Positions 10,097-30,301 of a stretch of DNA of 35,144 bases are shown piece by piece. The position numbers were made by a program, and so were the translations under genes. Every line of letters starts with the position of its first letter. The first letter of the stretch is position 1. Origin of the DNA: Syntrophomonadaceae bacterium. Its GTDB lineage: Bacteria > Bacillota > Syntrophomonadia > Syntrophomonadales > Syntrophomonadaceae. The stretch lies in NCBI GenBank assembly GCA_028706315.1, contig JAQWBP010000022.1, forward strand, positions 1 to 35,144. The letters are read 5' to 3'. Below the pieces are notes generated by a model that was given only the letters and a program-made list of their open reading frames with translations, was not told where the DNA came from and searched no databases.

Positions 10097-11299
10097 ATGG
10101 AAAAAGTAGTACTAGCATATTCTGGAGGATTGGATACATCAATAATTATTCCCTGGCTGAAAGAAAACTATGGGTATGAGGTTATTGCCTACTGTGCCGA
10201 TGTAGGACAAGGAGAGGAATTAGACCCCGTCAAAGAAAAAGCGCTCAAATCCGGGGCATCAAAAATATATATTGATGACCTTACTGAGGAGTTTGTAACT
10301 GATTATGTTTTCCCCGGCGTAAAAGCGGGAGCTATTTATGAGAAAAAATATCTCCTGGGAACTTCTTTTGCCCGCCCGCTGATTGCTAAAAGGCTGGTAG
10401 AAGTAGCGGAAAAAGAAGGCGCTATTGCTATCTGCCATGGTGCTACTGGTAAAGGTAATGACCAGGTACGCTTTGAGCTGGGTATTAAGGCTATTAATCC
10501 TGATATAAAGATTATTGCGCCCTGGCGCGAATGGGATATAAAATCACGTGAAGATGCGATTGACTATGCTAAAGCACATGGCATAGAAGTACCAGTAAGC
10601 AAAGAAAAAATCTACAGCCGTGATAGGAATATCTGGCATATTTCTCATGAAGGCGGAGACCTGGAAGACCCGGCTAATGAACCCCAGGATAATCTGTATG
10701 TTCTGACAGTACCCCCGGAGAAGGCTCCAGACAAACCGACTTATGTAGAAATAAGTTTTGAAAAGGGAATACCCGTAGCTTTAGATGGCAAGAAATTGGG
10801 ACCAGTAGAGCTATTAACTGAGCTAAACCGCCTGGGTGGCGAAAATGGTGTTGGCATTACCAGTATGGTAGAAAACCGTCTGGTAGGCATGAAGTCCCGT
10901 GGTGTTTATGAAACTCCTGGTGGTACTATACTTTACCGCGCCCATGAAGAACTGGAAAGGCTGACTCTGGACCGGCGCACCCTGGAGTTCAAAGAAGTGT
11001 TAGCACTTAAATATGCGGACCTTGTTTATGATGGTAACTGGTTCTGCAAATTAAGAGACGCTATGGATGCTTTTGTAGATGAAACTCAAAAAACTGTAAC
11101 TGGTACCGTTAAAGTAAAACTTTACAAAGGCAGCTGTGAAGCAGTAGCTTCAAGTTCTCCTTATTCACTCTACAGTGAAGAACTAGCTACTTTTAGCCAG
11201 GATGAGATTTATAGCCACAAAGATTCTGAAGGCTTTATTAATCTTTTCGGCTTACCGCTTAAAGTCCAGGCCCTGTTAAACCGGAAAATAAAAGAATAA
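10097..11299 (+). CDS. argG: Argininosuccinate synthase
   Basis: This ATP-dependent enzyme joins citrulline and aspartate to give argininosuccinate. The PP-loop AYSGGLDTS lies at residues 8-16. [14 protein letters not shown] and the STDRN-like [15 protein letters not shown] region are typical of bacterial type I ArgG. Length (400 aa) is standard. AAAGGAGA precedes ATG 10097. It is the last arg gene of this operon; argH, which completes the pathway, is 7.8 kb away. No clear terminator follows argG. Confidence 0.97.
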
Positions 11300-11377: not shown

Positions 11378-11405
11378 TTGACATATCACGAGGGTATATT
11401 ATACT
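11378..11405 (+). promoter_or_regulatory. Promoter of the DUF2294-ADH operon
   Basis: A consensus -35 TTGACA (11378-11383) and -10 TATACT (11400-11405) are 16 bp apart. The promoter lies about 40 nt before leader RNA copy 1. Confidence 0.75.
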
Positions 11406-11419: not shown

Positions 11420-11445
11420 TAATAAAATTTGTATTGTTATATGCT

Positions 11446-11545
11446 GGTGGATTGCGGAGAAACCATACGGTGGCTCCTTAAGAGACCAATATTCATATCA
11501 GAATACCTACTATAGGGGTTCAGTGGATATTGGTTTTTGTTTTAT
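11446..11545 (+). promoter_or_regulatory. Structured leader RNA, copy 1 (riboswitch-like, class not recognised)
   Basis: The conserved order is GGTGGATTG, then the hairpin GGAG-AA-ACC-loop-GGT-GG-CTCC (11456-11477), then AGACCAATAT (from 11483). The hairpin has a possible tandem A-G internal pair. The ACCAATAT strand is also the 5' arm of a terminator-like hairpin, so two mutually exclusive folds are likely. Alternatives include GGT with ACC or ATTG with CAAT. A second copy at 12054 shares nearly all these positions. I do not recognise it as a known riboswitch family. Confidence 0.6.
11485..11545 (+). terminator. Leader terminator/attenuator, copy 1
   Basis: ACCAATAT (11485-11492) pairs with ATATTGGT (11527-11534), followed by TTTTGTTTTAT. 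An inner stem (GAA..CC with GG..TTC) lies in the loop. It is placed 60 nt before the DUF2294 start, as expected of an attenuator. Confidence 0.65.
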
Positions 11546-11607
11546 AGATAAAGTGAAACATTTCACTAAGTACTCTTCTTGTCTTAAAAAGAGGAGGGAA
11601 TGAGTTT

Positions 11608-12030
11608 GTGAGCAAGAGTGAAGAAAGCTTAACAGTCAACAATAATGTAACTGCATTTAAAAAAATTAAATTAAATGATCAGCAAAGACGACAGATGCAG
11701 CACGAATTTAAAATTTACATGGAAAAGTATTTTAAGCGTACCTTGGGTAAAGGTGTGGATCATACCAAAATAATCATATGGGAAGATATGTTAGTTGTCA
11801 GGGGAGAAGGTTTTTTAACTGAGCCGGAGAAATTCATAGTTGCTACTGATTCTGGTAAGGATGTGGTAAATGCAGCTCGTATGCAAGTGGCCAGACAGCA
11901 TTCCATTGATAATCTGACTTACTTTGAGGAAAGGCTGGGAGCTAAGGCAATTCATCAGGTTTATGTTATAGAGGCGGATAAAGATTTTTGGATGCATGTA
12001 GTAATTTTTGACCGGGTTATAACCGAATAA
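11608..12030 (+). CDS. DUF2294 domain protein
   Basis: This is a 140-aa soluble protein of the DUF2294 type, of unknown function. I recognise the pattern QFKIYMEKYFKRTLGKG...TKIIIWEDMLVVRGEGFLT followed by a conserved ARRQ-like segment (ARMQVARQHS). No signal peptide or membrane segment is visible. The start is GTG 11608 behind GAGGAGGG; nearby ATG 11600 runs into a stop after three codons. It is the first gene behind the promoter and leader RNA copy 1, and a second leader copy follows its stop by 23 nt. Shared control with the downstream dehydrogenase suggests a common signal. Confidence 0.75.
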   Translation: MSKSEESLTVNNNVTAFKKIKLNDQQRRQMQHEFKIYMEKYFKRTLGKGVDHTKIIIWEDMLVVRGEGFLTEPEKFIVATDSGKDVVNAARMQVARQHSIDNLTYFEERLGAKAIHQVYVIEADKDFWMHVVIFDRVITE

Positions 12031-12053
12031 ATATTAAAAAAACTTAATATAAA

Positions 12054-12153
12054 GGTGGATTGAGGAGAAACCCCTAAGGGTGGCTCCGAAGCAGACCAAT
12101 ATTTTTATGAAGAAACTCAAGGGTGAAGCATAAAGATATCGGTCATTTTTTTT
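12054..12153 (+). promoter_or_regulatory. Structured leader RNA, copy 2 (riboswitch-like, class not recognised)
   Basis: This has the same architecture as the copy at 11446: GGTGGATTG, then GGAG-AA-ACCC-loop-GGGT-GG-CTCC (12064-12087), then AGACCAATAT. Compared with copy 1 the upper stem is one pair longer, a change that keeps pairing. It sits between the DUF2294 and dehydrogenase genes without an obvious promoter of its own, so it probably controls read-through into the second gene. Confidence 0.6.
12094..12153 (+). terminator. Leader terminator/attenuator, copy 2
   Basis: GACCAATAT (12094-12102) pairs with ATATCGGTC (12136-12144) with one mismatch, followed by eight T within ATTTTTTTTG. 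It overlaps the conserved 3' strand of the leader RNA in the same way as in copy 1. Confidence 0.65.
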
Positions 12154-21225: not shown

Positions 21226-21300
21226 GCCGATGTGGCTCAGTGGCAGAGCAGCTGATTCGTAATCAGCAGGTCCGCGGTTCGAATCCGCGCATCGGCTCCA
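21226..21300 (+). tRNA. tRNA-Thr (anticodon CGT)
   Basis: The acceptor arm GCCGATG/CATCGGC is perfect and is followed by TCCA, so CCA is encoded. The anticodon stem GCTGA/TCAGC holds loop TTCGTAA, giving anticodon CGT. The T-arm CCGCGGTTCGAATCCGCG is intact. The 3' part from 21255 is duplicated at 34403, which shows that an element integrated here and restored the gene. Confidence 0.95.
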
Positions 21301-23560: not shown

Positions 23561-23698
23561 TGGCGGTGGGGAGGAAGTATTTATTGGACCTTTAGAATTT
23601 ATGCAGAGACAATAGTTTATTGTATTAAGTTCAAGGATTTTGTAATGGAAGTAGAGAAGCAATATGGATAACTGAACTCTAACGAGGTGGTTTTGCCC

Positions 23699-26600
23699 AT
23701 GCATAATGATTTAACCTTTTTCACAAATGAACCCGGAAGGACACTTTTAAATCGGTTTACTATTAGTCTCGAAAACAATACACAGTTTTTTGATGTCCTA
23801 GTTGGATATTTTAGAACCAGTGGCTTTTATAAACTATATGCATCTTTGGAAGATGTGGACAAAATACGCATTCTAGTTGGCATCAGCACCGATAATAAGG
23901 TTATTGAGCTTATAGATTCAGCTCGAATAGAACAAATTGAATTGCAGTTTTCTTCCAAAGAGATAAAAGACCAGTTTCAAAGCCTAATTAACAATGAATA
24001 TGATAGCTCTGATGACAGCTATGAAGTGGAGCAGGGAGCTAGAAAGTTTGTTGAATTCATTCGTAATGGAAAACTGGAAGTACGAGCCTATCCGCATGGG
24101 AAAATACATGCCAAGGTATATATTATTCGTAAACGCAGTCAGGAGGATTTCGGTAAGGTCATTACTGGATCCAGCAATTTTACTGAAGCCGGGCTTAAGG
24201 ATAATTTGGAGTTTAACGTAGAACTAAAAGATGCTCGAGATGTACGCTATGCTTTGGAAAAATTTGGGGAACTTTGGGATGAAAGCATAGAAATAACCCG
24301 CGAATATGTGGATACTGTTAGTAATACTTGGGTTAGGGATGATATAACTCCATATGAGCTCTACTTAAAGTTCCTTTACGAATACTTTAAAGAAGAGATT
24401 AACCATGATAAAAGCATGATTAAAAATCGCTACCTTCCACCTGGATTTAAGAAGCTTCAATACCAGGAGGAAGCGGTTATTGATGCTAAAAAGAAGCTGG
24501 AAGCGTACGGTGGAGTTTTCCTGGCTGATGTCGTTGGCCTGGGTAAAACCTATATCTCCGCCATGTTGGCTCAACAGCTGGAGGGCCGTAAGCTAGTTGT
24601 TTGTCCACCGGTTTTGGTTGATTACTGGGATGACACATTTAAAGACTTTAATCAGGTGGCTACCGTCGTATCGATGGGTAAACTGGATCAAATCATTGAA
24701 AAAGACTATACCCGCTATGATTATATTTTTATTGATGAAGCCCATCGTTTCCGTAATGAGAATACCCAGAGCTATGAAATGATTCATCAGATCTGCGCGG
24801 GTAAAAAAGTTATATTAATATCTGCAACCCCTTTAAACAATTACCCCAAAGATATCGCCAGCCAACTATATTTGTTTCAAAAACGCAATGATAGTTCTCT
24901 GGCGGTCAAACATCTGGATTCATTCTTCGCAAAAATAAACACTCGTTTAAGGAAACATGAAAAAGGAACCAATGCCTATAATAAAGAGTTGAAAGCAGCC
25001 TCAAAAGAGCTGCGTGAACGGGTGCTTCAGGATGTAATGGTACGGCGGACTAGATGCGATATTATTGAAAACTACGCTGAAGATCTTGAGGCCCAAAATA
25101 TCACTTTCCCTGAGCTGGAAATACCTTGTAAGCTGGTCTATGAAATGGATACTAGGACTGAACGCCTTTTTAATAATATTTTAACGGGAATTAAAAGTCT
25201 GACCTATGCTCGTTATAAATCGCTGGTTTATCTGAAAAATCCCTCTAATATTCAGGCTACGTTGATGGTTGGGCAGATGAATATGGGTGGCTTTATGAAG
25301 TCCATATTGATTAAACGCTTAGAAAGCAGCTTTTATGCCTTTAGTAAGACCCTGGATCGTTTTGTTACCTCGCATGAGCACTTTATCAGAATGTATGAAG
25401 AAGGAACGATTTGGATTTCTAAAAACCCAAACATCTACGACTATATCGATAGTGGTGATGATGAAGCACTGCTGGATCTTCTGGAGCAGGAAAAGGCACA
25501 TAAATTTAATAGCAAAGAGTTTAAAGATGAATTTATAACTGATTTAATCAGTGATTACAATATACTATGTGATTTACAGAAACAAGCCGCTAAAATCACA
25601 CAAGATCCGAAATTTGAAAAATTTCAATTAGAATTAAGTAAGGACCAGGTTTTAAAAGATAATAAAATTATTATATTTACTGAAGCTGCTGATACAGCCG
25701 AATATTTAAGTAAGAAATTCAAAGCAATCTACGGCGATAAAGTTCTTCATTATAGCTCTTCATCCGGCAAAGCACTTAAAAAGCGAATCCAAGCTAACTT
25801 TGATCCCGGAGAAAAGAAGCAAAAGGATGACATCAAGATTTTAATAACTACTGATGTTCTGGCAGAAGGTGTGAACTTGCATCGCTCAAATGTGATAGTA
25901 AACTATGATTTGCCCTGGAATCCTACCCGGGTTATGCAACGCCTGGGACGAATAAACCGTATTGGTAGCCCGTTTGATAAAATCTATGTTTACAATTTCT
26001 TCCCATCCAGCCAGGGGGAAAGCGCGATAAACCTCGAGGCCAATATCGTGTCTAAGATTCAGGCCTTTCGTGAGACCTTGGGTGATGATATCAAGTATCT
26101 TAGTGATAATGAAGAGATAACTTCATATGGACTTTACCAGGCCTTAAATGATAAGGCTGTTTTAGAAGGCAGTGAAGAAGAAATCCGTTCTCCTCTGCAT
26201 TATCTATCTATTATTAGAAAAGTTCGTGATGAAGATCCGGATCTATTTGAAAAAATCAAAAAACTACCCAAGAAATCGCGAACCGGAAGAAATACTACTT
26301 TAGTTAATGGTACCCGGACGCTGAGCTTTTTTAAGAAGGGACTATTACGCAAATTTTATATATCCGGTGATTACGGACCCGAGGAAATGAGCTTCTTCCA
26401 GGCAGCAGACTTATTCGAAGCAGATCCACAGGCCATATCCCAAAAAATCAATCGGGAGTTTTATGAGCAACTAAACCAGAATAAGAAGAGTTTTTTCCAG
26501 GGTATAGTGCAGGAAGAGGAAGAAAAGCCGGAACTTAGTGGGAAAAGTGCTAGCCTGGTCAAGTATTTAAAAGCCTTATATACCGAAAAATGTTTTGCGG

Positions 26601-26830
26601 ATTTTGAAGTGGAATATTTACGTTCAATTGAAACAGCGGTTCGAGAAGGGGTAGTAGCCAAAAGCCTTGTAAATCAGTTACTAAAGAAGATTAACGGTAA
26701 AAAGCCTATTGAAATACTTAATATTTTACAGGAAGATTTACCAGATGTTTACCTACAAGTACAGCCGGATGACAAGAAAGACAATGTTCGGGCCGAAATA
26801 ATTCTATCCGAATATCTAATTGGAGGCTAA
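23699..26830 (+). CDS. PLD-nuclease-SNF2 helicase fusion (defence/restriction type)
   Basis: This is a 1043-aa protein. Residues about 10-180 form a phospholipase-D-like nuclease domain: HAK at 137-139 and GSSN at 157-160. The Asp of the classical HxKx4D is absent, as in BfiI-type PLD restriction nucleases. A SNF2/superfamily 2 helicase follows: ADVVGLGKT (about 276-284), DEAH (346-349), ISATPLNN, and the C-terminal lobe ending NPTRVMQRLGRINRIG. I chose ATG 23699, with GAGGTGG 8 nt upstream, over the GTG at 23687. Only 3 bp separate it from the methyltransferase, so the pair probably act together: helicase-nuclease as restriction arm, methylase as self-marking arm. It recalls DISARM and BREX helicases but without their other genes. 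Confidence 0.85.
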   Translation: MHNDLTFFTNEPGRTLLNRFTISLENNTQFFDVLVGYFRTSGFYKLYASLEDVDKIRILVGISTDNKVIELIDSARIEQIELQFSSKEIKDQFQSLINNEYDSSDDSYEVEQGARKFVEFIRNGKLEVRAYPHGKIHAKVYIIRKRSQEDFGKVITGSSNFTEAGLKDNLEFNVELKDARDVRYALEKFGELWDESIEITREYVDTVSNTWVRDDITPYELYLKFLYEYFKEEINHDKSMIKNRYLPPGFKKLQYQEEAVIDAKKKLEAYGGVFLADVVGLGKTYISAMLAQQLEGRKLVVCPPVLVDYWDDTFKDFNQVATVVSMGKLDQIIEKDYTRYDYIFIDEAHRFRNENTQSYEMIHQICAGKKVILISATPLNNYPKDIASQLYLFQKRNDSSLAVKHLDSFFAKINTRLRKHEKGTNAYNKELKAASKELRERVLQDVMVRRTRCDIIENYAEDLEAQNITFPELEIPCKLVYEMDTRTERLFNNILTGIKSLTYARYKSLVYLKNPSNIQATLMVGQMNMGGFMKSILIKRLESSFYAFSKTLDRFVTSHEHFIRMYEEGTIWISKNPNIYDYIDSGDDEALLDLLEQEKAHKFNSKEFKDEFITDLISDYNILCDLQKQAAKITQDPKFEKFQLELSKDQVLKDNKIIIFTEAADTAEYLSKKFKAIYGDKVLHYSSSSGKALKKRIQANFDPGEKKQKDDIKILITTDVLAEGVNLHRSNVIVNYDLPWNPTRVMQRLGRINRIGSPFDKIYVYNFFPSSQGESAINLEANIVSKIQAFRETLGDDIKYLSDNEEITSYGLYQALNDKAVLEGSEEEIRSPLHYLSIIRKVRDEDPDLFEKIKKLPKKSRTGRNTTLVNGTRTLSFFKKGLLRKFYISGDYGPEEMSFFQAADLFEADPQAISQKINREFYEQLNQNKKSFFQGIVQEEEEKPELSGKSASLVKYLKALYTEKCFADFEVEYLRSIETAVREGVVAKSLVNQLLKKINGKKPIEILNILQEDLPDVYLQVQPDDKKDNVRAEIILSEYLIGG

Positions 26831-26833
26831 GAA

Positions 26834-29800
26834 ATGGACAGAGCCAAAAGAAAACTATTGGAAACTACCATACAAAGCCGTTTTGATTTGCAAAAGTTTA
26901 TTCTGTTAACCAGGGAACTATTGAAAAGTCCTAAAATTAAAAGCAACCCTGTATTTACGGACAAAGTAAAGGCCCAGTTTAGAGATAGTGTTAAGCAATT
27001 TACAGACTTTGGGCGTTATCGGGATAGTGAAAACAAGGTTCTACTCTTGGTGGCAGTTGAATTAAAATCATACAAATCTGTTGCCCGCAGCCGGGCCATG
27101 CAAAGAAACTTTATTAAGGACCTGTTACAACGAGAAAGTGCTGATGCAGCCCTGGTAGCTTTTTATGAAGAAGACCATAGCGACTGGCGGATTTCCTTTG
27201 TAAAGATAGACTATAATTTTGTCGGCAGCACCTTGGAAGAAGATCTCACTCCAGCCCGGAGGTATTCCTTCTTGGTGGGTAAAAACGAAAAAAGCCACAC
27301 AGCTATGCAGCAGCTTGCAATTATCATGTTTGATGACACAATCAGTCCAACTGTTTCCCAGATTGAAGAGATTTTTAATATAGAAAAGGTAACCAATGAA
27401 TTCTTCCTGATATATAAGGATAAATACCTGGAACTAAAAGAGTGCCTGGAAAGCCAAGCGGAATTTCTTAGCATGGCCGAAAAGCTCAATTTTACTGCAG
27501 AAGAATTTGCTAAGAAGTTAATGGGACAGCTTAGCTTCTTATATTTTCTGCAGCGCAAAGGCTGGCTAGGGGTTACCGCTAATCCTAGATTCATCCCGGC
27601 TGCAGTAGCAGAAGAACTGCTGGTAAACAAACCCTCTAACCTACGAGATTTATTCAAGAAAGTTTATACCTTAAATAAAGACCAATATGTACGTAGTACT
27701 ATAGCCTTAAGAGATTTGACCGATCAGCAGATCATGACGCTAAATTTTATTTTTACTAATACCCCTTATGAAGGGAAATGGGGTACCGGCGATAAGAACT
27801 TTATCAGGAGAATTTTTACGAATGCTGATAGGAACGGCAAAAATTTCTACAGCGATTATCTGGAACCACTGTTTTATAATGCGCTAAACGAAGAACGCGG
27901 GGGAAATACCTACTATCGGCCGTTTAATTGTATGATTCCATTCCTAAACGGTGGTCTTTTTCAGCCCATCGTAGAAGAATATGATATGGACCAGGTTACC
28001 TTCGAGATACCGAATGAGCTCTTCTCCAATGAAAACCTTACCAAAGAAGGAGATAAAGGTGATGGCATCCTTGATATCTTTGATCGCTATGCCTTTACAG
28101 TAAAAGAAGATGAACCGCTTGAAAAAGAAGTTGCGGTGGACCCGGAAATGTTGGGTAAGGTTTTTGAAAACTTATTGGAAGTAAAGGACCGCAAATCCAA
28201 AGGAGCCTTTTATACTCCCCGCGAAATCGTACACTACATGTGCCAGGAAAGCTTGATCAATTATTTAATGACTGAGACAGGAATTAGCTATGAAGATATC
28301 AATATATTAATCCGTTATGGTGATATTATTGCTGATGCCGATAATAGTAAAGCTGCAGCCCAGAGCGGAAAATTCCTAATGCCGGAAAGTATCCGTAAAA
28401 ACGCCAAAAAAGTAGATGATGCCCTGGATGACATACGTATTGCTGATCCGGCTGTAGGGAGTGGAGCCTTCCCACTGGGGATGATTAATGAAATTGTACG
28501 AGCCAGGATGAATCTTACCCTGTATCTCTTGCCAGACGAGTATGTGCTTAACCGGAATTATGCCCTACCGGAGCAACGTAAGCCCTATAATTTGAAGCTA
28601 CGGACCATTCGCCACTCTATTCATGCTGTGGATATAGAGAGAAGTGCTGTAGAAATTACCAAGCTGCGTCTTTGGTTATCTCTTATAGTTGATGAAGACA
28701 ATTTCAGTAATATACGCCCTCTGCCAAACTTGGAATATAACATTATGTGTGGTAATAGCCTGTTGGAAGAGTTTGAAGGAATTAAACTTTTTAACGAAAC
28801 GCTTCTGGAGAAACATATAGAAATAGCAGCTACAAGAGAACCTAATATTGAGCAAATGGATATCTTTACTCCGCAGTCACAGAACATTTTGGATGAAATA
28901 TATGCTTTGCAAGAGAAAGTTTTCGCGACCAGCGATATTAAACAAAAGATTGCTCTAAAGAAACAGATTGATGAGTATGAGTGGGATTTGATTGAGAAAA
29001 GCCTGATAGAAAACGGTAAGGCACGTGAAATCCCTAAAATAAGGGAAATTAAGCGATTGAATTCAAAACCATACTTCTTGTGGAAATTAAATTTTGCCAA
29101 AGTATTTCGGGATAAGGGTGGTTTTGATGTAGTTATTGGGAATCCGCCTTATATCTTTTCTAGAGAAAAGATTAGTTCGAAAGAAAAGGAGCTTTATTAC
29201 AAGTTTGAAACTGCCGAATATCAGTTAAATACCTTTGTTCTTTTTATTGAAAAAGGTATCAAACTATTGAAACAGAATGGTGTATTATCATTTATCGTCC
29301 CCAATTCCATTCTTAAGGTTACTTCAATGTCTAAATCGAGGAGGTTTATGCTTGAGCAAGGTGAATTGTTAAATATCTTACAAATCTTTGGCTATTCCTT
29401 TGAAAATGTGAATGTTGAAGCAGTTGTTTTGGTTTTTCAGAAGCACTTAACTGGTAATAAACAGGTTAAAATAATCAGTGTAAATGAGCCGCGTAATTTT
29501 TATGAGCGAAACAATTTAATTATAGATTATAGTAAATGGCTTGCTGATGAGGAATGTCGTTTTCAAGTAAGTATCGATGCAAAAACTGATCAACTGCTTG
29601 ATAAACTGAGGGAAAACGCCAAACCACTGGAAGATATGTTTGACGTTAAAGCAGGGCTTCAAGCCTATGAGACCGGTAAAGGGAATCCAAAACAAACAGC
29701 TGAAGATGTAAAAAGTCGGCCTTACGACGCTACTTTTAAGGTGAATAGTCATACTTATCCTTATTTAGAGGGAAGGGACGTTCAAAGGTATTCATATATT

Positions 29801-30301
29801 TGGTCAGATAGTTGGTTACAATATGGTGAAATGTTAGCTGCTCCTAGAGAGTTTTCTATTTTCTCAGTACCACGATTGTTAATTAGGGAAATTACATCTA
29901 CTCATCCAAAATCTATTTTGTGTTGCTATTTTGAAGATGTTTATTTAAATAATCGGAGCATAATCAATGTCTTGAGTAAAAAGCATGATAGTGATGAATT
30001 GAAATGTTTACTTGTTTTATTAAACAGTAAGTTAATATCATATTATTTCAATAAGACAACACCTAAATCAGAAAGGAAAATGTTCCCAAAGTTAATACTA
30101 AAGGATCTTAGAAAATTCCCTATTATTATTCCAGGGGATAAAACTAAAATGGTAAAACTTGCAGATGAAATAATGAGTTTATACAAACAGGGATATGAAT
30201 CATCTATTGAAGAATTGGAATACCAGGCGAATCAAATGGTATATCAATTATACGGACTTAACCATGAAGAAATAGAGATTATTGAGAATTTGAATAAATA
30301 G
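26834..30301 (+). CDS. Eco57I-type DNA adenine methyltransferase, large
   Basis: This 1155-aa protein has SAM-binding motif I IADPAVGSGAF (near residue 537) and the N6-adenine catalytic motif NPPY (VVIGNPPYIF, near 769). The N-terminal part has the LVAVELKS...RSRAMQRNFIKD pattern seen in large Eco57I-class methylases of defence systems. LGKVFENLLEVKDRKSKGAFYTPREIV precedes the methylase core. The last 300 residues probably recognise the target. GGAGG (26822-26826) precedes ATG 26834. No separate specificity subunit exists. It probably methylates host DNA to protect it from the upstream helicase-nuclease. PglX of BREX and DrmMI of DISARM are the nearest comparisons I know, on architecture only. 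Confidence 0.87.
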   Translation: MDRAKRKLLETTIQSRFDLQKFILLTRELLKSPKIKSNPVFTDKVKAQFRDSVKQFTDFGRYRDSENKVLLLVAVELKSYKSVARSRAMQRNFIKDLLQRESADAALVAFYEEDHSDWRISFVKIDYNFVGSTLEEDLTPARRYSFLVGKNEKSHTAMQQLAIIMFDDTISPTVSQIEEIFNIEKVTNEFFLIYKDKYLELKECLESQAEFLSMAEKLNFTAEEFAKKLMGQLSFLYFLQRKGWLGVTANPRFIPAAVAEELLVNKPSNLRDLFKKVYTLNKDQYVRSTIALRDLTDQQIMTLNFIFTNTPYEGKWGTGDKNFIRRIFTNADRNGKNFYSDYLEPLFYNALNEERGGNTYYRPFNCMIPFLNGGLFQPIVEEYDMDQVTFEIPNELFSNENLTKEGDKGDGILDIFDRYAFTVKEDEPLEKEVAVDPEMLGKVFENLLEVKDRKSKGAFYTPREIVHYMCQESLINYLMTETGISYEDINILIRYGDIIADADNSKAAAQSGKFLMPESIRKNAKKVDDALDDIRIADPAVGSGAFPLGMINEIVRARMNLTLYLLPDEYVLNRNYALPEQRKPYNLKLRTIRHSIHAVDIERSAVEITKLRLWLSLIVDEDNFSNIRPLPNLEYNIMCGNSLLEEFEGIKLFNETLLEKHIEIAATREPNIEQMDIFTPQSQNILDEIYALQEKVFATSDIKQKIALKKQIDEYEWDLIEKSLIENGKAREIPKIREIKRLNSKPYFLWKLNFAKVFRDKGGFDVVIGNPPYIFSREKISSKEKELYYKFETAEYQLNTFVLFIEKGIKLLKQNGVLSFIVPNSILKVTSMSKSRRFMLEQGELLNILQIFGYSFENVNVEAVVLVFQKHLTGNKQVKIISVNEPRNFYERNNLIIDYSKWLADEECRFQVSIDAKTDQLLDKLRENAKPLEDMFDVKAGLQAYETGKGNPKQTAEDVKSRPYDATFKVNSHTYPYLEGRDVQRYSYIWSDSWLQYGEMLAAPREFSIFSVPRLLIREITSTHPKSILCCYFEDVYLNNRSIINVLSKKHDSDELKCLLVLLNSKLISYYFNKTTPKSERKMFPKLILKDLRKFPIIIPGDKTKMVKLADEIMSLYKQGYESSIEELEYQANQMVYQLYGLNHEEIEIIENLNK

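Follow-up and report, generated by a model that had tools for sequence, protein, structure and literature searches.

The ribonucleic antiterminator (RAT) hairpin of the BglG/LicT/SacY systems has two internal loops, and the targets of ANTAR antiterminators are paired hexaloop hairpins. In the bgl operon of Escherichia coli, BglG sites lie on either side of bglG, and each of them overlaps a terminator (PMC8836124). The guanidine-IV/Gd4v riboswitch carries conserved binding residues in its terminator loop, which forms a kissing loop to hairpin 1, and is associated with sugE, MATE, GNAT and transaminase (PRK07324) genes (PMC7736828, PMC9788692, PMC11611296). Here we document an RNA element occurring twice in a 35,144-nucleotide stretch of a Syntrophomonadaceae bacterium (GenBank assembly GCA_028706315.1, contig JAQWBP010000022.1, positions 1 to 35,144; hereafter the window), together with its two alternative folds, their covariation and its strict association with a subfamily of DUF2294 (PF10057) proteins. 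Its identity as a conserved transcription attenuator, a structured leader used twice in series, is well supported. On balance, it is most likely an undescribed antitermination element that is read by the DUF2294-subfamily protein itself.

Two exclusive folds of the leader RNA

The two RNA copies flank the DUF2294 gene, and copy 2, which begins ~20 nt past the DUF2294 stop codon, precedes a medium-chain dehydrogenase/reductase (MDR) alcohol dehydrogenase gene. A preliminary description made from the sequence alone had placed two copies of one leader RNA at this locus, and the covariance models recover both of them, with all filters off, at 68 and 62 bits, the third-ranked site in the window reaching 12 bits. 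The conserved 5' sequence is found at 11446 (GGTGGATTGCGGAG) and 12054 (GGTGGATTGAGGAG) on the forward strand, where GGTGGATTG is followed in both cases by a GGAG-AA-ACC/GGT-GG-CTCC hairpin and then by AGACCAATAT, the likeness between the copies extending through the hairpin into AGACCAATAT. As far as our searches reach, these are the only two copies in the 2.5-Mb source genome.

Covariation was assessed over 120 unique copies (alignment A6) using background-corrected mutual information. The 5' UGGU is paired with an ACCA that forms the base of the terminator 5' arm, resulting in one long antiterminator hairpin. The conserved 5' GGTGGATT is one side of this helix and not single-stranded, a feature overlooked in the preliminary description. 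In the full pairing model 88% of cells are paired versus 79.5% in shuffled alignments, the covariation score is 0.308 versus 0.174 (0 of 500 shuffles as high), and a control in which the 3' partner was slid gave pairing of only 36–57% at all slides. Six of the ten strongest covarying column pairs are P1/P2 pairs, with changes of A16-U44 to G-C, G15-C46 to A-U, A21-U40 to C-G and U-A, and C23-G38 to U-A. Columns 19-41, 6-56 and 10-51 are also among the ten, and none of these pairs was proposed in the preliminary description; 19-41 form a non-canonical A.G/U.G/G.A pair inside the 2x2 loop, and 6-56 and 10-51 join the 5' strand to the linker in a helix. The latter columns (10-51) interchange U-A, U-G and C-G; in register with these two pairs, U2-A61, G3-C59, G4-C58, U5-A57 and U9-A53 pair as well, and U9-A53 and U10-A51 switch jointly to C-G. 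The P2 loop (loop 1) is variable and the purines of the internal loops are conserved. An additional P2 pair in copy 2 (ACCC/GGGT) had been cited as maintained pairing; the pair is real but weak evidence, columns 24-37 being unpaired in ~30% of copies. Two other pairings were dropped, namely 5' GATTG with the terminator-arm CAAT, because GATTA variants break it, and P2 GGT in competition with the terminator ACC, because P2 changes in concert with its partner strand (CG, UA) although ACC is fixed.

Minimum-energy structures of both leaders comprise the hairpin and a downstream terminator (ViennaRNA; z -3.3 and -2.5). That the conserved 3' strand doubles as the first arm of a terminator hairpin with a T-tract, as first noticed in the window, applies to nearly all copies, the terminator stem before the T-tract overlapping the RNA element in 119 of 120. 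A terminator stem with T-tract was present in 87 members of an 88-copy set (see below), compared to 7 after shuffling. The stem covaries (position -1, GC 54 and AU 42; position +3, AU 93 and GC 11), and its interior is variable in length and sequence. Because both use ACCA, the antiterminator and the terminator are mutually exclusive. Nascent folding of both window copies indicates that the antiterminator is the minimum-energy fold at every length tested until the terminator 3' arm is made, at which point the terminator is better by 6.5 (copy 1) and 4 kcal/mol (copy 2). These energetics, together with the exclusive folds, point to an attenuator that terminates by default and requires a factor to hold the antiterminator.

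Distribution and association with a DUF2294 subfamily

A two-mismatch pattern search over 101 related genomes returned numerous sites whose stems had changed in a compensatory manner, for instance from GGAG/CTCC to GAAG/CTTC and CAGAG/CTCTG. A covariance model (R1; the second model is R2) was built from 13 copies and had matches in 24 of the 54 genomes from the family and in 18 of the 398 from the phylum, the matches being very often paired, 560–640 nt apart on one strand. Covariance-model searching, which the preliminary description had suggested, produced >120 copies, many of them upstream of DUF2294 and MDR dehydrogenase genes; they come from syntrophic Bacillota and their compensatory changes are clear. 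Its statement that no known riboswitch family matches was upheld: at the gathering threshold no Rfam 15 family matches any RNA copy in the window and 42 further loci, and up to E = 10 nothing meaningful was obtained for the window copies. Neither an Rfam match nor a lack of covariation or of other copies, the outcomes it had named as counting against it, was observed.

We read 41 loci containing 88 copies, including the two in the window. Their common architecture is RNA, DUF2294, RNA, and then an MDR or short-chain dehydrogenase/reductase (SDR) gene, and in the fetched loci the following gene belongs to MDR dehydrogenase cluster c1 (32 members) or to the non-homologous SDR dehydrogenase cluster c2 (6 members). 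Members of the Thermacetogenium/Syntrophaceticus group have an ACT-domain gene and one more gene preceding DUF2294, with RNA copies downstream only. Across families, no gene other than the DUF2294/dehydrogenase context is conserved with the RNA.

The association was also approached from the protein side, by searching the DUF2294 protein alignment alone against 84,980 species genomes, and the RNA was present at 53 of the 54 loci obtained. All 61 subfamily genes examined are closely followed by an RNA copy, at a median distance of 22 nt from the DUF2294 stop codon, and 39 of the 61 also have one upstream, versus none for 40 other DUF2294 genes outside the subfamily. Complete DUF2294 genes scoring ≥120 bits against the subfamily profile always have the RNA and those scoring ≤55 bits never do; conversely, none of the RNA-bearing genomes examined is without a DUF2294 protein, and in the phylum sample PF10057 is present in 18 of 18 RNA-bearing genomes versus 97 of 378 others (Fisher p 8e-11). 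In the protein tree, the RNA-linked members group in a single clade (support 100/100) on a long stem, the nearest relatives of the window protein being from Syntrophomonadaceae. Clade-specific invariant residues, absent from other DUF2294 proteins, include Q31, H32, K35, Y41, K48, G66, E67, H98, N102, H116 and W128.

The exceptional locus (L176:4947-5250, Peptococcaceae bacterium 1109) has a DUF2294 gene broken after ~63 residues, with the C-terminal half deleted. The same deletion takes the downstream RNA, leaving a terminator remnant (GGTCTTTTTT) right before the dehydrogenase. This joint loss supports the association but, coming from one metagenome assembly, is only suggestive.

A number of copies depart from the common architecture. 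Orphan copies precede other genes at L096, L101, L106, L097, L233, L234 and L240, and all of these genomes encode the subfamily. Those at L096, L101 and L106 are divergent (29–35 bits with R1, 42–48 bits with R2) and are followed by genes for an ABM monooxygenase-like protein and a 4HBT thioesterase, possibly reflecting a wider regulon; a MATE gene is situated close to the L096 and L101 copies on the opposite strand. At L233, L234 and L240 (Desulfallaceae genomes G468, G471 and G431) the orphan copy precedes a chimeric open reading frame, consisting of ~20 first dehydrogenase residues and a ~210-residue LAGLIDADG endonuclease-like stretch with no Pfam match, possibly a mobile element inserted in, or carrying, the start of an alcohol dehydrogenase gene. 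Tandem copies 110–180 nt apart are found before a single gene at L088, L111, L115, L116, L137 and L174, which suggests stacked attenuators with a tighter OFF state. A divergently oriented copy is located near 2500–2745 of L084, L085 and L086, ahead of an operon that encodes a protein of ~396 aa without a Pfam family together with a DUF7408 protein. At L130:4595-4714, a molybdenum/tungsten cofactor riboswitch (RF01055, 74 bits) is positioned directly upstream of cassette copy 1 in the same leader, which places two different RNA controls in series and gives a hint of the underlying physiology, and L140 has tandem molybdenum cofactor riboswitches further downstream, before a formate dehydrogenase-like gene.

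Candidate readers of the element

For a small protein gene that is found one-to-one with an RNA and between two of its copies, the best explanation is that it encodes the reader of that RNA. Based on this association and the bgl-like layout, DUF2294 is most likely the RNA-binding factor, and we infer that it binds the RNA, that binding turns the genes on, and that a signal is involved. Transcription from a promoter near 11378 would meet copy 1, where the nascent RNA would fold first into the long irregular antiterminator, comprising P0, a purine-rich internal loop, P1, the 2x2 AA/GG loop and P2. The emerging terminator 3' arm would then capture ACCA and transcription would stop, with basal read-through yielding some DUF2294, unless a factor binding the two internal loops held the antiterminator and allowed the polymerase to read on. 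Active DUF2294, which probably senses a small signal perhaps tied to alcohol, aldehyde or redox state, would bind these internal loops and block both terminators, so that DUF2294 and dehydrogenase output would rise together. At copy 1 the protein would antiterminate the mRNA that encodes it, a positive autoregulation, and at copy 2 the dehydrogenase message; the result would be a positive-feedback switch. By extension, there is a somewhat better than even case that this clade of DUF2294 proteins is a new RNA-binding antiterminator family, unrelated to BglG/LicT, ANTAR, PyrR, TRAP and HutP, which reads an undescribed two-internal-loop hairpin and thereby controls alcohol dehydrogenase genes of syntrophic anaerobes.

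Several observations weigh against this explanation. The subfamily is not basic (median isoelectric point 7.0, net charge 0), providing no charge support for RNA binding, and comparison of the DUF2294 model with PDB folds gave no clear match to an RNA-binding fold. In genomes with two or more DUF2294 cassettes, RNA likeness is 0.69 within and 0.70 across cassettes, hence no sign of cassette-specific RNA recognition. The covariation of P0 itself is silent because its GG/CC core is invariant, and support for this helix comes from its flanks. Lastly, the association test on the phylum sample is not independent of phylogeny, kinship inflating its p-values.

The window protein matches PF10057 with 81.5 bits (cut-off 23). 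The Pfam name of this family, MpsC, implies a part in a Na+-translocating membrane-potential system and may mislead. The AlphaFold model is a small alpha/beta domain with a mean predicted local distance difference test score of 87.6, and its best VIA-align Z of 7.1 (BcsD, TRAPP-like) is inside the noise range stated by the tool. No solved homologue was found in the PDB, and literature searches found nothing linking DUF2294 with RNA or a Syntrophomonas alcohol dehydrogenase with a riboswitch.

The preliminary description had interpreted the locus as an attenuating riboswitch used twice in series. The attenuator and its double use stand, whereas the one-to-one link to the DUF2294 subfamily and the bgl-like layout speak for a protein-controlled antiterminator rather than a metabolite riboswitch. 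Were the element a transcriptional riboswitch, the 55-nt hairpin with its two conserved internal loops would be an aptamer for a small ligand, such as a cofactor or a metabolite of the alcohol or aldehyde type, with DUF2294 serving as an enzyme or chaperone of the same pathway. Conserved unpaired purines and an embedded terminator are typical of riboswitches, as is use before genes as different as the two non-homologous dehydrogenases (MDR c1, SDR c2), the thioesterase and the ABM monooxygenase, and the RNA is used several times per genome, also away from DUF2294 (L096, L101, L106, L097). However, no genome examined has the RNA but lacks the subfamily, which is encoded even where copies are orphans, and the subfamily is practically never found without the RNA; riboswitches are not known to show such a one-to-one link with a single small protein gene that is flanked by two copies. 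The aptamer would moreover be small and hairpin-only. We consider a riboswitch unlikely, albeit the foremost of the alternatives; if true, it would be a new class with >120 known copies.

Considerably less probable is an antiterminator read by another trans factor (an RNA-binding protein, tRNA or small RNA), with DUF2294 as one target of the regulon. This would fit the Thermacetogenium/Syntrophaceticus group, where DUF2294 shares an operon with an ACT-domain protein and, having no upstream copy, is not autoregulated. Even in this group, though, DUF2294 and the dehydrogenase have a copy directly between them, and the conserved context across families offers no other gene as a candidate. An unregulated terminator of conserved shape, or a repeat resembling repetitive extragenic palindromes or miniature inverted-repeat transposable elements spread by transposition with no regulatory role, might account for the occasional tandem copies (L088, L111, L115, L116, L137) and those with duplicated dehydrogenase starts (L233, L234, L240), but is very improbable as two alternative covarying folds share ACCA, loops diverge while internal-loop purines are conserved, and copies are mostly sense and directly before genes rather than scattered (2 per genome here).

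If DUF2294 is indeed the reader, a bgl-type circuit of site, regulator, site and enzyme would have evolved again with unrelated parts. An antiterminator role would be the first regulatory function for PF10057 and an undescribed bacterial route to turning on alcohol metabolism. The present analysis contributes a regulatory RNA class that is well supported and occurs in neither Rfam nor the papers searched, indicates how syntrophic bacteria may switch alcohol dehydrogenases, and provides a directly testable function for part of an unstudied protein family.

The locus in relation to known systems

The locus is preceded by an arginine operon, the last gene of which is argG (10097-11299), and continues in the order promoter-like site, copy 1, DUF2294, copy 2, MDR dehydrogenase and anaerobic ribonucleotide reductase (Table 1). 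The promoter-like site would start a transcript of DUF2294 and the dehydrogenase ~35 nt ahead of copy 1; the consensus scan gave 3 sites in total versus 3.8 expected in shuffles. A PDB sequence search identified 5yln, a zinc-containing alcohol dehydrogenase, as the closest solved relative of the MDR dehydrogenase, itself a cluster c1 protein. Elsewhere in the window, a large helicase-like protein followed by a ~1155-aa DNA methylase-like protein (23687-30301, judged from translation only) make up a restriction/defence-like island, upstream of which lies a tRNA gene at 21226.

Table 1 Coordinates of the RNA element, its helices and the adjoining genes in the window
Feature	Position	Strand	Basis or remark
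Promoter-like TTGACA-16-TATACT (11 of 12)	11378..11405	+	Consensus scan; weak on its own
RNA element copy 1	11444..11494	+	Covariance-model match, 66 bits (R1), 62 bits (R2)
Copy 1 antiterminator hairpin	11445..11488	+	Covariation over 120 copies; minimum-energy nascent fold until terminator 3' arm made
Copy 1 P0	UGGU 11445-11448 / ACCA 11485-11488	+	
Copy 1 internal loop with UU	11452-11453	+	
Copy 1 P1	GGAG 11456-11459 / CUCC 11474-11477	+	Next to 2x2 AA/GG loop
Copy 1 P2	ACC 11462-11464 / GGU 11469-11471	+	
Copy 1 intrinsic terminator	11481..11543	+	Arms 11481-11496 / 11523-11538; T-tract to 11543; 5' arm includes P0 ACCA
DUF2294/PF10057 protein, 140 aa, GTG start	11608..12030	+	Pfam PF10057 6e-23; proposed RNA-binding antiterminator regulator
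RNA element copy 2	12052..12104	+	Covariance-model match, 70 bits (R1), 68 bits (R2)
Copy 2 antiterminator hairpin	12054..12098	+	Covariation, minimum-energy nascent folding
Copy 2 P0	GGU 12054-12056 / ACC 12095-12097	+	
Copy 2 P1	GGAG 12064-12067 / CUCC 12084-12087	+	
Copy 2 P2	ACCC 12070-12073 / GGGU 12078-12081	+	
Copy 2 intrinsic terminator	12094-12144, T-tract 12146-12153	+	Precedes dehydrogenase gene
MDR zinc alcohol dehydrogenase, 351 aa	12250..13305	+	Pfam ADH_N + ADH_zinc_N; proposed controlled enzyme gene

The guanidine-IV/Gd4v riboswitch was first suspected because of its layout: in leaders of Firmicutes it consists of one hairpin and then a terminator hairpin, and it is presumed to be an ON switch acting by terminator competition. 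It was rejected since neither the conserved positions nor the gene contexts match: in our element the terminator loop is variable and conservation resides in the 5' strand, the internal loops and the terminator base, and the genes are MDR/SDR dehydrogenases and DUF2294. The overlap of conserved nucleotides with an intrinsic terminator is shared with the thiS hydroxymethyl-pyrimidine pyrophosphate (HMP-PP) riboswitch (PMC6478431) and other terminator-embedded aptamers, from which the element differs in having no Rfam family match and a strict partner protein gene. The proposed stabilisation of an antiterminator over a terminator by a protein is likewise found in ANTAR systems (PMC8934654, PMC3369936), but paired hexaloop hairpins were not seen here and by Pfam DUF2294 is without an ANTAR domain.

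The closest resemblance is to the BglG/LicT/SacY systems, in which a hairpin with internal loops is also exclusive with an intrinsic terminator whose 5' arm it shares. As in bgl, the proposed regulator gene is situated between two sites with enzyme genes downstream, here flanked on both sides in 39 of 61 cases and on the downstream side in 61 of 61, with the dehydrogenase next. The parts are different, however. The locus has no phosphotransferase system, Pfam identifies only PF10057 (MpsC) in the protein and no CAT or PRD domains, the RNA is ~55 nt and differs in sequence, and control would be exerted on alcohol dehydrogenases instead of sugar genes. The system would work like a BglG-type antiterminator, yet the lack of CAT/PRD domains and the different RNA place it outside the BglG family.
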